Origin: Gilliamella sp. App4-10
Lineage (GTDB): Bacteria > Pseudomonadota > Gammaproteobacteria > Enterobacterales > Orbaceae
Direction of reading: 5' to 3'
DNA length: 48,435 bases
NCBI RefSeq assembly: GCF_001690495.1
Contig: NZ_LZGS01000008.1
Location: forward strand, 1 to 48,435
This document shows, one piece after another, positions 28,735-34,086 of the stretch. Both the position numbers and the translations under genes were made by a program. Under the pieces are notes generated by a model. The model saw only the letters and a program-made list of their open reading frames with translations, did no database searches and was not told the DNA's origin. Position 1 is the stretch's first letter. Every line of letters begins with the position of its first letter.

Positions 28735-29799
28735 CTAACCATTTCCATTCAAAAGGTCTTTCTTGATTTCTATCGCAAGGAGTGGATTCCACATTGCACC
28801 GGTTGCACTCATGACGGCATCAGCGCCACTGTTAATAAACTGCTGGTAATGTTCATTCGAGCTGACACCACCCACACCAACAATAGCAAATTTTAGCTCC
28901 ATTTGTTTACGATATTTAGCAAGTCGACTTACCATATCTAAGCCAGCCCAACGAATTGCATCACCACAAATTCCACCTTCTTTTCTATTTTCACCTAAGG
29001 CCGGATTGCCTTTAGCATCAACGGGTTTAGCCGATAATGTATTGATTGCGCTTAAACCATCAATAATCGATCCAACACGGGTTAGTAAAGAAATAATTTT
29101 TTCATCATCAGGGAAATAAGCCAGTTTTAAAATAAGAGGACGATCCGGTACAGCAGTTTTAATGGCATTGACAATTCGCTCAACTTTATCTATATCAAAG
29201 CAAAGTAGTTTGCTTGCCCCTTCGTTTGGGCAACTTAAATTTGCCTCAAGAATAGGTGCATTGGTTTCTCGAACTAATTTTGCAGCTAAAGCGTAATCTT
29301 TTTCTATATCGCCATTACCTTGTGTACCTTGAAAACTACCAATTACACATTGTCCATGACTTGCTGTTTTTACAGCGTCTGCCATATCGGGTTGCCAAAT
29401 ATCGGGTGAAAAAGAAGGCACACCAAATGAGTTGGTTATAGATAGTGGCTGTTCATAATTAGTATCAGCTAATACCGTATCTAAATTGCAAGATAATTCA
29501 CCTTTAGGATGGACTGCTAAAACATTAGGTAAAGGATGGCATTTATGAAGTTTAGTTCGTACTGTTTTATATACACATAAATCAAATCCATAAGCAAATG
29601 CTGCTTTGATGTAATTTGCATTTAATAAAGGCCCCGCTGGCATACCGAATGGTAAATTGACATCAACATTTAAAAATTTTGAGGATTTTGTTGAGATTTG
29701 TTGCACTTTATCTAATTGTGTAAAACTTCCAAATGGTCCTTGAGCATAATTATCTTCATAGCTTATACTAGGATTATAAAAAGGTGTCAAAGATTTCAT
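28735..29799 (-). CDS. Dihydroorotate dehydrogenase, class 1-like
   Basis: A 354-residue FMN TIM-barrel enzyme of the PyrD family. Family marks are FGMPAGPLLN, YKTV with the flavin-contacting Lys, HPLPNV, NSFGVPS, ANLSCPNEGAS with the cysteine used as catalytic base in class 1 enzymes (class 2 uses Ser), ILKLAYFPD, INTLSAKP and VGVGGVSSNEHYQQFI. There is no N-terminal membrane-binding segment as in class 2 PyrD, so it is soluble. Class 1A enzymes such as that of Lactococcus reduce fumarate, which fits the fumarate-reductase genes next door. Whether the substrate is truly dihydroorotate is inferred. It has a strong CAGGAGAT ribosome-binding site and a leader with a terminator (see neighbouring entries). 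Confidence 0.82.
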   Translation of the reverse strand: MKSLTPFYNPSISYEDNYAQGPFGSFTQLDKVQQISTKSSKFLNVDVNLPFGMPAGPLLNANYIKAAFAYGFDLCVYKTVRTKLHKCHPLPNVLAVHPKGELSCNLDTVLADTNYEQPLSITNSFGVPSFSPDIWQPDMADAVKTASHGQCVIGSFQGTQGNGDIEKDYALAAKLVRETNAPILEANLSCPNEGASKLLCFDIDKVERIVNAIKTAVPDRPLILKLAYFPDDEKIISLLTRVGSIIDGLSAINTLSAKPVDAKGNPALGENRKEGGICGDAIRWAGLDMVSRLAKYRKQMELKFAIVGVGGVSSNEHYQQFINSGADAVMSATGAMWNPLLAIEIKKDLLNGNG

Positions 29800-29849
29800 A
29801 ATATCTCCTGATTATATGTGTTCTTAAAGTAAAATCGATTATTAATTTG

Positions 29850-29969
29850 CTATAAAAGTAAAAGGTTTTTAAAACAAAAAATCCTCCATAAAGGAGGATT
29901 GAAAAGTAGGATGAATAGAGAAGAGAAAGTTGGTTTTGAATCTAATCTGTCAATTGGTATTAAAAACAT
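29850..29969 (-). CDS. Candidate 39-residue leader peptide before the pyrD-type gene
   Basis: ATG at 29969, TAG at 29850-29852, 39 residues. GAGAA lies 7 nt upstream of the ATG, and the predicted transcription start is about 27 nt upstream. The peptide is hydrophobic and rich in Phe, Leu and Ile, with no recognised family. The ORF runs through the pyrimidine-rich segment and across the terminator hairpin, ending 50 nt before the pyrD-type start codon. This is the layout of pyrL in the E. coli pyrBI leader (44 residues). A coding role is inferred from position, not from conservation. Confidence 0.45.
   Translation of the reverse strand: MFLIPIDRLDSKPTFSSLFILLFNPPLWRIFCFKNLLLL
29871..29900 (-). 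terminator. Leader terminator (candidate attenuator) upstream of the pyrD-type gene
   Basis: Read on the minus strand, AATCCTCC pairs with GGAGGATT over 8 bp with a 5-nt loop, followed by TTTTTGTTTT. It lies 71 nt upstream of the start codon at 29799, on the same strand and downstream of a good promoter-like element, with no other gene that it could end. Preceding it (29901-29939) the transcript is very rich in U and C. Confidence 0.75.
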
Positions 29970-30001
29970 TACGTTATTCTCTATAGTATTAATTTCTAGT
30001 C

Positions 30002-30029
30002 ATTTTATCCTAACAAAATTAAAGTTCAA
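30002..30029 (-). promoter_or_regulatory. Candidate promoter of the pyrD-type gene and its leader
   Basis: On the minus strand, TTGAAC (30029-30024), a 16-nt spacer and TAAAAT (30007-30002; 5 of 6 consensus). Initiation would fall near 29996, giving a leader of about 197 nt. Confidence 0.55.
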
Positions 30030-30148
30030 TATGAAAATATGAAAAATATGTAACTAAATGAAAAGGTTACAGTGTTTTTTTTGAGATTTTTAATTATAAC
30101 TTCTTCACCTTAAGATTTATAGAGTATAAAAAATAGGCAAAATATTAT

Positions 30149-30162: not shown

Positions 30163-30318
30163 TAATTTTATAATTAATTAATAAATCTAAAAAAAATTCG
30201 TCGAAAAAATGATACACATTACGATTAATGTAGCTAATGAAACTAGAGAACGATTATTTGTAATGTCATCATTACTGATAACTATGAAAGTTAAATATTA
30301 ATGATTAGGTATATAAAA

Positions 30319-33090
30319 ATGAAAAATGAACATATTTTTAGGCCGATCACCCTACCTAATGGAGTCGAACTAAAAAATTGCATAGTGATGGCGCCAATGA
30401 CAACTTGCTCTGGTTTTCACGATGGTTCCGTTACACATGATCTGATTGAGTATTATCGCGTAAGAGCTGGCGAAATTGGAACAGTTATTGTCGAATGTGG
30501 ATTTGTTGATAATAAAGGATTAGCTTTTCCTGGCGCTATTGGTTTAGATTGTGATGATAAGATTGAAGGATTAGCAAAAATTGCTAAAGCTATCAAAGAA
30601 CAAGGTTCTAAAGCAATTATTCAAGTTTACCATGGTGGTCGAATGGTTGAACCAAAGTTAATTGGTGGTCAATCTCCTGTCGGACCTAGTGCTATTGCAG
30701 CTCCACGCCCTAATGCAGCTACTCCAATTGAATTGACTGCTGATGAAGTGGACGAACTGATTGACAAATTTGGTCAGGCAGTGCGTCGAGCTATTCAGGC
30801 TGGTTTTGATGGCGTAGAGATTCATGGTGCTAATACTTATTTAATTCAACAATTCTATTCACCTAATTCAAATCAACGAGATGATAAATGGGGGGGTAAT
30901 CGTGATAATCGCGCTCAATTCCCTCTTGCTGTATTAGATATTACCCATAATATGGTTAAGCAATATGCAACCCCTAGATTTATTGTTGGATATCGTTTTT
31001 CACCAGAAGAGATAGAAGTCCCAGGAATTCGTTTTGATGACACAATGTATTTACTTGAAAAATTGGCTAAAAAAGGGCTAGATTATGTTCATTTCTCAAT
31101 GGGAACAACGCTTAGATCGTCGATTGTTGATACTCAGGATCCAACTCCTTTAATCAAAAAATATGTTGCAATGCGTTCAGCAACATTAGCTAAAATTCCT
31201 GTTGTGGGTGTTGGGAATGTTATTAATCTAAGTGATGTTGATGATGCAATCAACAATGGTTATGACTTAGTTGCGGTTGGTCGAGCCTGCATTGCTTATC
31301 CTGACTGGGTAAATCGCATAAAGAAAGGTGAAAAACTAGAACTCTTCATCGATAGTGATAAGCGTGAGGCTCTTAATATTCCTGTACCTCTATGGCATTT
31401 TTCTCTTGTTGAAAGCTTGATTCGTGATGTTAATCTTAATGTGAAAAAATTCAAACCCGGTAATTACCAAGAGAAAGTTAATGACGAATCTTATGAATTC
31501 CTTATTAATGTTGAATTAGGTAAAGACTTTATTAAAAATATAAAATTAGTGAATGAGAAAGAGTTTGATAATGACGTTTTAGGTAATTTTTCGGTTATTA
31601 AAAATAGAATTATTGGTTCAAATAGTCCGCATGTTGATACGATTTCGGGAGCAACTACTCAGTGCGAGGCTTTTAAAAAAGCAGTCACTAAAGCAATGGC
31701 AAAATCTAACAAAGCAGCAATTATTGCTGAAGGTGGCAATCCTGATGACCAGTCTTTCGATGTTGTGATTGTTGGTAGTGGGGGGGCAGGTCTTGTTGCT
31801 GCTATTCAAGCTCGTGATCTTGGTGCAAGTGTAGTTATAGTTGAGCAAATGTCTGTCATTGGTGGTAATACCAATAAAGCCTCGGCTGGAATGAATGCCG
31901 CAGAAACCAAGTTCCAAAAACTCAAAGGTATTGTAGATACTAAAGAACTCTTTTATAAAGAAACCATGACAGGTGGAAAAAATAAAAATAATCCAGCATT
32001 ATTACGTTATTTTGTTGAAAACGCACCTGATGCCATTAATTGGTTAGATGAAAATGGTATTGAATTAAGCAATATTACAACAACGGGTGGGATGAGCATC
32101 GATCGCACTCACCGTCCAGAAAGTGGTGCCGCGGTAGGGGGATTTTTAATTAGTGGCCTAGTAAAAAATATTAACAAGCGCGCAATTGAAGTGATGCTTG
32201 ATACTAAGGTTACTGAAATTGCAACCGAAAACCATAAAGTTGTTGGCGTTAAAGTTTTAGAAGAAGATGGTTCAACTCATGTTATAAAAACTAAAGCAGT
32301 TGTTATTGCAACGGGAGGATTCAGTGCCAATACTGCCATGGTTGAAAAATATCGTCCAGATCTCAAAGGCTTTGTCACTACCAATCACAAAGGCGCGACT
32401 GGTTCAGGTATTATGATATTAGAAAAACTTGGTGCAGGAACTGTTGATATGGGGGAAATTCAAATTCATCCAACGGTTGAACAAACAAGTTCATATTTAA
32501 TTTCTGAGTCTATTCGAGGTGGTGGCGCAATACTTATATCACAAAAAGGTCAACGATTTGTTAATGAACTTGATACAAGGGATAAAGTATCAGCTGAAAT
32601 TATCAAATTACCGGAACATTATGCTTATATCTTGTTTGATCAACAAGTTCGTGATGAAAACAAAGCTGTTGAAGAATATATTTCAAATAAACTTGTAACC
32701 CAAGCAAGCACCATTAAAGAATTAGCACAACAATTATCGATTGACGGTAACACATTAGCTAAAACTGTAGAACGTTACAATCAGTTTGTCATCACTAAAC
32801 ACGATGAAGATTTTGGTCGAACAACAGGAATACGTTACCCAATTGAAAAAGGTCCTTTTTATGCAATAAAAATTGCGCCTGGAGTTCACCACACCATGGG
32901 CGGTGTAACTATCAATACGCAAACACAAGTCTTAGATGCAAATAAAAATATCATTCAAGGTGTTTTCGCAGCAGGCGAAGTTGTGGGGGGCGTACATGGC
33001 GCTAACCGTATTGGTGGTAATGCGGTTGCAGATATCATTATTTTTGGTATTCAAGCGGGTACCAAAGCTGCTGATTATATTAAAAGTTAA
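30319..33090 (+). CDS. Three-domain NAD(P)H-dependent fumarate reductase (OYE + FMN_bind + FAD_binding_2)
   Basis: A 923-residue soluble flavoprotein with no signal peptide, so cytosolic. Domain 1 (about 5-345) is an Old Yellow Enzyme barrel (VMAPMTT, IQVYHGGRM, EIHGANTYLIQQF). Domain 2 (about 380-465) is FMN_bind with DTISGATT, whose Thr446 is the predicted site of covalent FMN attachment by ApbE. Domain 3 (about 480-923) is a fumarate-reductase flavoprotein with GSGGAGLVAA, the proton-relay/substrate Arg in ESIRGGGA, HHTMGG and GANRIGG. This matches the cytoplasmic NADH:fumarate reductase described in Klebsiella. ATG 30319 is preferred over ATG 30301 because of AGG 9 nt upstream. apbE follows 30 nt downstream. 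Confidence 0.9.
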   Translation: MKNEHIFRPITLPNGVELKNCIVMAPMTTCSGFHDGSVTHDLIEYYRVRAGEIGTVIVECGFVDNKGLAFPGAIGLDCDDKIEGLAKIAKAIKEQGSKAIIQVYHGGRMVEPKLIGGQSPVGPSAIAAPRPNAATPIELTADEVDELIDKFGQAVRRAIQAGFDGVEIHGANTYLIQQFYSPNSNQRDDKWGGNRDNRAQFPLAVLDITHNMVKQYATPRFIVGYRFSPEEIEVPGIRFDDTMYLLEKLAKKGLDYVHFSMGTTLRSSIVDTQDPTPLIKKYVAMRSATLAKIPVVGVGNVINLSDVDDAINNGYDLVAVGRACIAYPDWVNRIKKGEKLELFIDSDKREALNIPVPLWHFSLVESLIRDVNLNVKKFKPGNYQEKVNDESYEFLINVELGKDFIKNIKLVNEKEFDNDVLGNFSVIKNRIIGSNSPHVDTISGATTQCEAFKKAVTKAMAKSNKAAIIAEGGNPDDQSFDVVIVGSGGAGLVAAIQARDLGASVVIVEQMSVIGGNTNKASAGMNAAETKFQKLKGIVDTKELFYKETMTGGKNKNNPALLRYFVENAPDAINWLDENGIELSNITTTGGMSIDRTHRPESGAAVGGFLISGLVKNINKRAIEVMLDTKVTEIATENHKVVGVKVLEEDGSTHVIKTKAVVIATGGFSANTAMVEKYRPDLKGFVTTNHKGATGSGIMILEKLGAGTVDMGEIQIHPTVEQTSSYLISESIRGGGAILISQKGQRFVNELDTRDKVSAEIIKLPEHYAYILFDQQVRDENKAVEEYISNKLVTQASTIKELAQQLSIDGNTLAKTVERYNQFVITKHDEDFGRTTGIRYPIEKGPFYAIKIAPGVHHTMGGVTINTQTQVLDANKNIIQGVFAAGEVVGGVHGANRIGGNAVADIIIFGIQAGTKAADYIKS

Positions 33091-33120
33091 TTTTTCTATG
33101 ATTATTTGTGCTTGTTTAAC

Positions 33121-34086
33121 ATGGTAAGTTCGAGCTACGAATATACTCAAACTTTAATGGGAACAACGGTTTCATTAACGCTCTTAGAGCCTAATGAAAC
33201 CGCTGCACATACGGTTTTTCAAACCATAAAAATGCTTGAGGATAAATTGACCGTTAATAGGTCTTTATCTGAAGTTATGTCAATTAATTTAGCTGCAGGA
33301 AAACACGCCGTTACTGTGAGCCAACCAGTTTTTTCTTTAATTGAACAAGCTCAAAAAGTCAGCCTACATTTTAATAGTTGCTTTAATCTTGCCATTGGTC
33401 CTTTAGTTAAGATTTGGAAAATTGGCTTTAAAGGTTATAAAGTTCCTTCTGCCAAGTTAATTAAACAACAACTATTATTAATTGATCCTAAAAATATCGA
33501 ACTTAATGCAAATAAACATTCCGTTTTTTTAAAAAAGCAAGGAATGGAAATTGATTTAGGTGCAATTGCGAAGGGGTATATTGCCGATGTCATCAAATTG
33601 GTTTTACATGAACAGCAAGTGTACCAAGGTATCATTAACTTAGGTGGAAATGTATTAACATTAGGGGGCTCCTTAACGGATAAAAACGGCTATTGGCATG
33701 TAGGACTCCGAAAACCGTTTTCAACTAATGATAAGCTGTCTGGAATTATCAAAGTTAAAAATAAATCGATTGTGACATCGGGAATTTATGAACGTTTTTT
33801 TATGCAAAACGATCATCTTTATCATCACATATTTAATCCCCAAACAGGCTATCCACTAGACAATGAATTAGAAAGCGTGACAATAATTTCAGATTCCTCA
33901 TTGGAAGGCGATATTTATTCAACTGTTTTTTATGGATGGGGGCTTGATAAAAGCAGTAAATATTTACAAAAACATCAAAACTTATCAGCGATATTTTTGT
34001 TAAAGAATAAAACAATAGCATTAATAAATCCTGATAACTTTATTTTTCAAAAGATTGATACTCAATACAAAATAAAAGCAGATTGA
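33121..34086 (+). CDS. apbE: FAD:protein FMN transferase ApbE, cytosolic form
   Basis: Attaches FMN from FAD to Thr in the SGAT-type motif of target proteins. The 321 residues have the opening YTQTLMGTTVSLTL, IDLGAIAKGYIADV (flavin and Mg site), INLGGNVLTLG, SIVTSGIYERFF, HHIFNPQTGYP and a late DIYSTVFYGWG. There is no signal peptide or lipobox, unlike periplasmic ApbE that serves Nqr/Rnf, so it should act in the cytosol on the FMN_bind domain of the fumarate reductase directly upstream. ATG 33121 is chosen; the frame is open to TTG 33106. The ribosome-binding site is weak, so coupling to the upstream gene is likely. Confidence 0.93.
   Translation: MVSSSYEYTQTLMGTTVSLTLLEPNETAAHTVFQTIKMLEDKLTVNRSLSEVMSINLAAGKHAVTVSQPVFSLIEQAQKVSLHFNSCFNLAIGPLVKIWKIGFKGYKVPSAKLIKQQLLLIDPKNIELNANKHSVFLKKQGMEIDLGAIAKGYIADVIKLVLHEQQVYQGIINLGGNVLTLGGSLTDKNGYWHVGLRKPFSTNDKLSGIIKVKNKSIVTSGIYERFFMQNDHLYHHIFNPQTGYPLDNELESVTIISDSSLEGDIYSTVFYGWGLDKSSKYLQKHQNLSAIFLLKNKTIALINPDNFIFQKIDTQYKIKAD

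Follow-up and report, generated by a model that had tools for sequence, protein, structure and literature searches.

The window analysed here is the whole stretch of 48,435 nt from Gilliamella sp. App4-10 (NZ_LZGS01000008.1, assembly GCF_001690495.1), and all coordinates refer to it. On the minus strand, a sequence-divergent, class-1-like dihydroorotate dehydrogenase (DHOD) gene of pyrD type is preceded by a compact leader. The features are listed below in the order in which they are read, each with its basis in brackets.

30051..30086, minus strand: conserved 36-nt DNA element TCTNAAAAANAANACTNTAACNNTTTCATTTANTTA, 5' of the promoter; candidate binding site or UP-type element (exact match)
30002..30029, minus strand: sigma-70-type promoter, TTGAAC (30029-30024)-N16-TAAAAT (30007-30002) (motif scan)
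near 29996, minus strand: predicted transcription start (prediction only)
29977..29984, minus strand: 5' arm AUAGAGAA of a candidate helix, containing the Shine-Dalgarno-like AGAGAA of the leader ORF (folding, covariation)
29850..29969, minus strand: leader ORF of 39 codons, running through the terminator (ORF reading)
29901..29928, minus strand: pyrimidine-rich stretch, directly 5' of the terminator (base composition)
29915..29922, minus strand: 3' arm UUCUCUAU of the candidate helix, within the pyrimidine-rich stretch (folding, covariation)
29880..29900, minus strand: intrinsic terminator hairpin AAUCCUCC-UUUAU-GGAGGAUU, 8 bp, with a T-run at 29881-29876 (motif scan, folding)
29804..29810, minus strand: strong Shine-Dalgarno sequence CAGGAGA of the pyrD-type gene (sequence)
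28735..29799, minus strand: divergent class-1-like DHOD gene, pyrD-type (PF01180), ATG at 29799 (Pfam)

The initial annotation had described the promoter, the 39-codon ORF at 29969-29850, the pyrimidine stretch and the 8-bp hairpin with its T-tract, followed by a strong Shine-Dalgarno sequence and the pyrD-type ATG at 29799, and all of these are found where it had placed them. The leader ORF of the window species ends 50 nt short of pyrD. By itself, the terminator hairpin folds at -12 kcal/mol (z -3.7 against shuffles), and the fold of the whole leader is only marginally more stable than that of shuffles (z -1.4). Motif scans of a 3-kb region returned three terminator-like sites against 1.6 expected and eight promoter-like sites against 13.9 expected; these counts are indecisive alone, so that the case for the leader rests on comparison. 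We also note that the plus strand carries at 30301-34086, divergently oriented from pyrD, a 929-aa fusion of old-yellow-enzyme, FMN-binding and flavocytochrome-c/fumarate-reductase-like domains, with an ApbE-like gene (weak match) next in line; Schmidhempelia has a comparable pair adjacent to pyrD.

A search for the pyrD-type protein in 99 genomes, 44 of them Orbaceae, found it in 43 of the 44 family genomes, the miss being a genome that is 74% complete (G015), while matches outside the family were all weak except that in G063. Upstream DNA was compared for 44 genes, namely the 43 of the family and that of G063. The CCTCC..GGAGG hairpin is present upstream of 33 of these: 32 of the 34 genes of genus g1 (Gilliamella-type), and one of the nine from other family genera, which belongs to Ca. 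Schmidhempelia bombi (G040). It was absent from the upstream DNA of eight other family genomes and G063, and two g1 genomes (G011 and G004) lack the leader and hairpin upstream of the pyrD-type gene. The promoter columns TTG and TA-AAT are invariant in the 33 aligned leaders. The distinct g1 leaders number 30, of which 29 begin with ATG and one with GTG; CCTCC follows the start at 72 nt in 20 leaders, at 66 nt in seven, and at 69, 75 and 65 nt once each; with the one exception of 65, these distances differ by multiples of three. A purine-rich, Shine-Dalgarno-like sequence precedes the leader starts. Six of the eight terminator stem pairs are the same in all 30 leaders, with little variation in the outer two, in contrast to the four-fold degenerate sites of the pyrD-type gene, which have a mean diversity of 0.562 and are invariant at one position of 89. 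The region 3' of the hairpin varies freely, and the Shine-Dalgarno position of the pyrD-type gene reads AGGAG or GGGAG in the g1 upstream regions that carry the leader. As judged from these alignments, the ORF start, the frame up to the hairpin, the terminator stem and the T-run are kept while the remainder drifts. The initial annotation had let its reading hinge on conservation of the hairpin and leader ORF in close relatives; both are conserved, and the position of the ORF, the hairpin and the pyrimidine tract persist genus-wide despite sequence drift.

Among the relatives L201-L256, the CCTCC..GGAGG hairpin was found within 300 nt of a pyrD-type gene only in L201, which is Schmidhempelia. 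Some terminator-like hairpin lies within the same distance in L210-L212, L215, L218, L231, L240, L251 and L253. Those of L231 (-76), L251 (-39) and L253 (-42), in one Acidobacteria and two Nomurabacteria genomes, stand close before the gene; these may represent the termini of upstream genes or attenuators that differ in sequence.

The base composition of the leaders invites comparison with E. coli pyrL, the sequence of which was taken from NC_000913. In the 30 pyrD leaders, the interval -30..-11 relative to CCTCC has 61% U and 80% pyrimidine, and the interval -60..-31 has 22% U and is about half A. The corresponding values for pyrL are 10-15% U at -60..-31 and 45-50% U with 75-80% pyrimidine at -40..-11, and its last 20 nt up to the terminator are 25% U and 75% pyrimidine. 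As in pyrL, the leader ORF crosses an intrinsic terminator of 8 bp that has a T-run, and an A-rich part is followed by 75-80% pyrimidine and then by the terminator. The step from U-poor to U-rich is sharp in the pyrD leaders and falls at about the same place as in pyrL. The distance from ORF start to hairpin is likewise comparable, at 88 nt in pyrL and mostly 72 nt (before CCTCC) in the Gilliamella leaders. A difference is that the U-rich part of pyrL lies at -40..-11, with only 25% U in its last 20 nt. For pyrL, part of the text of PMC10135430 states that limiting UTP slows the polymerase and that the coupled ribosome then prevents the terminator, and a passage of PMC4824070 places the terminator within the leader gene.

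The pyrimidine tract may have a second role, as the leader ribosome-binding site AAAGAGAAU could pair with the C/U tract. Over the 30 leaders, the covariation score of this helix is 0.181 against 0.133 (sd 0.013) in shuffles, with none of 500 shuffles reaching it, and 75.9% of its cells are paired against 49.5-62.9% in slid versions. In 17 of 30 species, the duplex of ribosome-binding site and tract surpasses its shuffles (p<0.05). The changed-pair and pair-type counts, which are the measures least inflated by relatedness, are not above shuffles (reached by 363 and 457 of 500, respectively), and the helix slid by -1 gives an equal number of changed cells. The fold of the window's own helix segment is no more stable than that of shuffles (z -0.9; 36 of 200 do as well), and RNAalifold applied to the leaders returned the terminator only, long-range helices not being predicted unaided. 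The comparison is no more than suggestive of an RBS/anti-RBS helix in the pyrD leaders. Part of the pyrimidine richness may serve this pairing, so that the tract need not sense UTP.

A covariance model of the leader, searched in the 44 family genomes, gave weaker matches also before an amidohydrolase gene of the PRK06886 family. Sixteen of the secondary matches of this search were examined, and 14 of them lie before the amidohydrolase gene, one at a contig end (L162) and one elsewhere (L173). The gene occurs in 42 of the 44 family genomes. It sits directly 5' of pyrD in an operon-like arrangement in eight sister-genus genomes, is located away from pyrD in Gilliamella, and in the Schmidhempelia draft is found on another contig than pyrD with other neighbours. 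One genome, G004, has several copies (C1, C2, C3), some of which contain stops or are fragmented.

All 41 amidohydrolase leaders possess the terminator; the ORF runs past it in 30 and stops at or in it in 11. A fitting ATG ORF is present in 40 of the 41 against 5.1 expected, with the hairpin in frames 0, 1 and 2 of the ORF in 8, 18 and 15 leaders, respectively. Ahead of the hairpin, their U content is lower than in the pyrD leaders, at 38% for -30..-11 and 54% for -20..-1. The 29 distinct g1 amidohydrolase leaders further contain a candidate extra hairpin 5' of the terminator, in which 79.5% of cells are paired (0/500 shuffles) and 26 cells are changed on both sides (0/500 shuffles); part of the species are without it, its pair and type counts are not above shuffles, and sliding it gives far lower values at one to two columns and intermediate ones at three. 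It was considered as a possible pause hairpin, which pyrBI-type attenuators have between leader start and terminator; the pyrD leaders have the possible RBS/anti-RBS helix in its stead. The exact terminator pattern occurs at six sites in nine genomes searched, all at the pyrD-type or the amidohydrolase gene, and is absent from four of the nine, including G010, where the loop is one base shorter. A generic genome terminator was rejected, since all six exact sites fall at these two genes.

The attenuator of pyrBI kind that the initial annotation had proposed is borne out in its architecture, its conservation and its pyrL-like composition; the proposal was incomplete, in that such a leader also heads the amidohydrolase gene and the C/U tract may have a further role. 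Unlike pyrBI, the genes concerned are a class-1-like DHOD and an amidohydrolase, not aspartate carbamoyltransferase (ATCase), pairing of the C/U tract with the leader ribosome-binding site is possible, and both loci have in common a 36-nt upstream element and a single terminator sequence.

The pyrD-type protein passes the Pfam model DHO_dh (PF01180) with 73.6 against a cut-off of 27 and is the only protein of the window genome over that cut-off; S, C, P and N of the motif NLSCPN are invariant in it. It reaches no NCBIfam pyrD cut-off for canonical PyrD of class 1A, 1B or 2, the best score being 84.7 bits against 269. The earlier designation of the gene as a dihydroorotate dehydrogenase of pyrD type holds in the sense of a divergent DHO_dh, marked elsewhere as a pyrimidine gene by its neighbours, and does not hold in the sense of a canonical pyrD. 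Downstream of the pyrD-type gene, Granulicella has pyrF and a dihydroorotase-like gene (263.5 bits, slightly under the cut-off of 279.05), and in one such genome (L241) an aspartate carbamoyltransferase over cut-off also comes after it. In a termite-gut member of the Burkholderiales (L247), the amidohydrolase gene adjoins pyrD, with pyrF about 1 kb further. The amidohydrolase is present in the flanks of 16 among the best 80 of 400 relatives. Its neighbours in other bacteria mark the pyrD-type gene as a probable pyrimidine gene. A similar amidohydrolase near a divergent pyrD was also seen in Patescibacteria (L221, L224, L228, L235 and L237), in L224 directly after argG.

The family genomes carry pyrE (over cut-off in 43 of 44) and pyrF (44 of 44), and the ATCase model reaches its cut-off in none of the 44. 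A single OTCase_N protein is present in 42 of the 44, at the same places as the ATCase-model matches. The family carbamoyltransferase was rejected as a pyrB product, as it is an ornithine carbamoyltransferase in the window genome. The dimeric pyrC model has matches in five of the 44 genomes, none of them in g1. As no ATCase was found, the pathway served would not be the textbook one. With pyrE and pyrF present and ATCase undetected, the co-regulated amidohydrolase is a candidate substitute for a missing pyrimidine step. In a PDB profile alignment, its invariant Gln aligns with the catalytic Glu of cytosine deaminase. Eight of the 44 genomes have a second, strong DHOD match, which where examined (L112 1871-6308, L110 2808-5803, L111 2992-4733) is class-1B-like with an electron-transfer-like subunit, and which lies partly beside allantoate-amidohydrolase-like and dihydroorotase/allantoinase-like genes, an arrangement suggestive of orotate or hydantoin degradation. 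In the window genome, a repeated SLPCRQFRN-type frame (L107 204-572), some 2 kb away from pyrE, resembles a translated CRISPR array.

The nature of the two genes bears on what the leader senses. A general state of translation or growth, such as ribosome supply, initiation rate, energy or the stringent response, would act through identical parts, as any change in coupling would do, and the possible helix over the leader ribosome-binding site would suit it. We nevertheless regard such sensing in place of pyrimidines as unlikely: as far as the covariance model and the two patterns show, the leader stands at only two genes, both of these lie near pyrimidine genes in other bacteria, and the U-poor to U-rich step occurs about where pyrL has one.

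The 36-nt element was found, with at most three mismatches, at 12 sites in nine whole genomes, all at pyrD-type or amidohydrolase promoters; G041 has none at that threshold. Its high conservation and its occurrence only at these promoters in the nine genomes would fit a dedicated regulator acting there as the real control point, with the terminator merely lowering the basal level. This arrangement, in which the conserved ORF and its frame are left unexplained, is quite improbable as the sole control, and both layers may act.

Selection also acts on the frame itself. The leaders were searched for an ATG 50-90 nt upstream of the hairpin with the frame open up to it, the expectation being taken from dinucleotide shuffles. 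Such an ORF is present in 32 of the 33 hairpin-bearing pyrD leaders against 3.9 expected, and the remaining one starts with GTG. From leader start to hairpin, 30 leaders contain no in-frame stop in 703 codons, against 102 and 44 stops in 674 codons each of the other two frames over the same interval. A chance ORF was rejected on these two counts. The initial annotation had also stated that the ORF reads through the hairpin, and all 32 hairpin-bearing g1 pyrD leaders do run past it. The frame in register with the hairpin, which is that of the leader ORF in all but L011, comes to within 10 nt of the pyrD start or passes it in 27 of 32 leaders; the other two frames reach the pyrD start region in 14 and one.

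The peptide encoded shows little of this conservation. Over 27 leaders, pairs of 60-98.5% identity give an in-frame pN/pS of 0.80 and off-frame values of 0.71 and 0.76; for the most divergent pairs, of 45-60% identity, the in-frame value is 0.76 and the shifted frames give 0.82 and 0.91. The lower in-frame value among the latter is a hint that leaves room for weak peptide constraint. Selection, as read from these substitution patterns, acts on the open frame and hardly or not on the leader peptide; translation as such, and not the peptide sequence, would be what matters, as judged by conservation only. A ribosome-arrest or amino-acid attenuator, in which the leader peptide stalls the ribosome, for example at Pro-Pro over the hairpin, is consequently very improbable. 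It would draw on the slightly lower in-frame pN/pS of the most divergent pairs and on a PPxWRIF-like stretch that crosses the hairpin in most pyrD leaders, but this motif is there because the hairpin sequence is nearly invariant, the hairpin is traversed in another frame in L011 and by most of the amidohydrolase leader ORFs, the overall in-frame pN/pS is no lower than off frame, and the peptides of neither set of leaders have a run of a single regulatory codon. Highly unlikely too is a stand-alone small RNA, with pyrD expressed from rare read-through or another start, which would fit the compact promoter-terminator unit, the strong terminator and the nearly invariant 3' end, but not the open frame by which 32 of 33 leaders reach the terminator, nor the continuation of that frame, in 27 of 32, as far as the pyrD start region. 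The motif scan placed a single promoter-like site (29827-29798) in the interval from hairpin to gene, and this site overlaps the start codon.

Other known systems share single features with these leaders. At E. coli rph-pyrE, transcription and translation are coupled at an intrinsic terminator, with rph as the upstream ORF. The coupling is alike; unlike E. coli, the gap between an rph-like ORF (named by eye) and pyrE in the window genome is 13 nt, which is too short for an attenuator. The PyrR-dependent pyr attenuators of Firmicutes place a premature terminator before a pyrimidine gene, as is seen here. An Rfam riboswitch or PyrR-binding leader was rejected, since an Rfam search of the whole window at gathering score returned no family besides tRNA. 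E. coli pyrD and pyrC are subject to start-site control, which is similar in that a pyrD gene is under pyrimidine control; we know of no terminator or leader ORF mechanism in that control. Among the matches listed, titles and abstract openings in the open PMC literature contained no pyrD attenuator of the present kind and no Gilliamella pyrimidine leaders. For pyrC and pyrD, a portion of PMC6245113 reports PurR repression.

At the level of sequence, there is good support for a translation-coupled attenuator of the pyrBI kind, and gene content and composition make a pyrimidine signal likely; UTP as the signal, the blocking by a ribosome and any timing role of the helix are what we infer beyond that. 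In the mechanism proposed, RNA polymerase would start near 29996 and transcribe the leader ORF, the pyrimidine-rich stretch and the intrinsic terminator inside the ORF. When UTP and CTP are plentiful, polymerase would outrun the ribosome, the hairpin would form and transcription would stop. Pairing between the tract and the ribosome-binding site would perhaps help polymerase in this, since the helix, if real, would with a fast polymerase cover the leader ribosome-binding site ahead of ribosome loading. Under pyrimidine shortage, polymerase would slow in the pyrimidine-rich stretch, and a ribosome already on the leader would close the gap; standing behind the slowed polymerase, it would keep the hairpin from forming, and pyrD would be transcribed. 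The second attenuator, of like kind, would act likewise on the amidohydrolase gene.

Translation-coupled attenuators of pyrBI type, before pyrD and the amidohydrolase gene, thus probably form a small pyrimidine regulon of the Orbaceae. What would be new are the genes placed under such an attenuator, the regulon of two genes and, possibly, the masking of a ribosome-binding site by the pausing tract. A wider reading is less likely and to be held as tentative: pyrimidines would be made by a non-standard route, with a cytosine-deaminase-like amidohydrolase taking the place of the missing front step and supplying a deep-branching PyrD, and the two genes, although apart in Gilliamella, would be governed by paired attenuators, by a tract that masks the ribosome-binding site as a kinetic double lock sharpening UTP sensing, and by an exclusive 36-nt promoter element.

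If the proposed regulon is real, the race between polymerase and ribosome, which is free of any regulator protein, would not be peculiar to E. coli pyrBI and could be attached to other pyrimidine genes, and such regulation would have persisted at two loci across a bacterial family. The leaders, which drift in sequence, peptide and frame yet stay open to the terminator, offer a natural series for the features that the mechanism needs. The amidohydrolase would be a concrete candidate for a missing pyrimidine step of bacteria in which pyrE and pyrF are present and an aspartate carbamoyltransferase is not detectable. The presence of short decoy coding regions running into terminators suggests that the Orbaceae, bacteria of insect guts, gauge their pyrimidine supply by a race between polymerase and ribosome.
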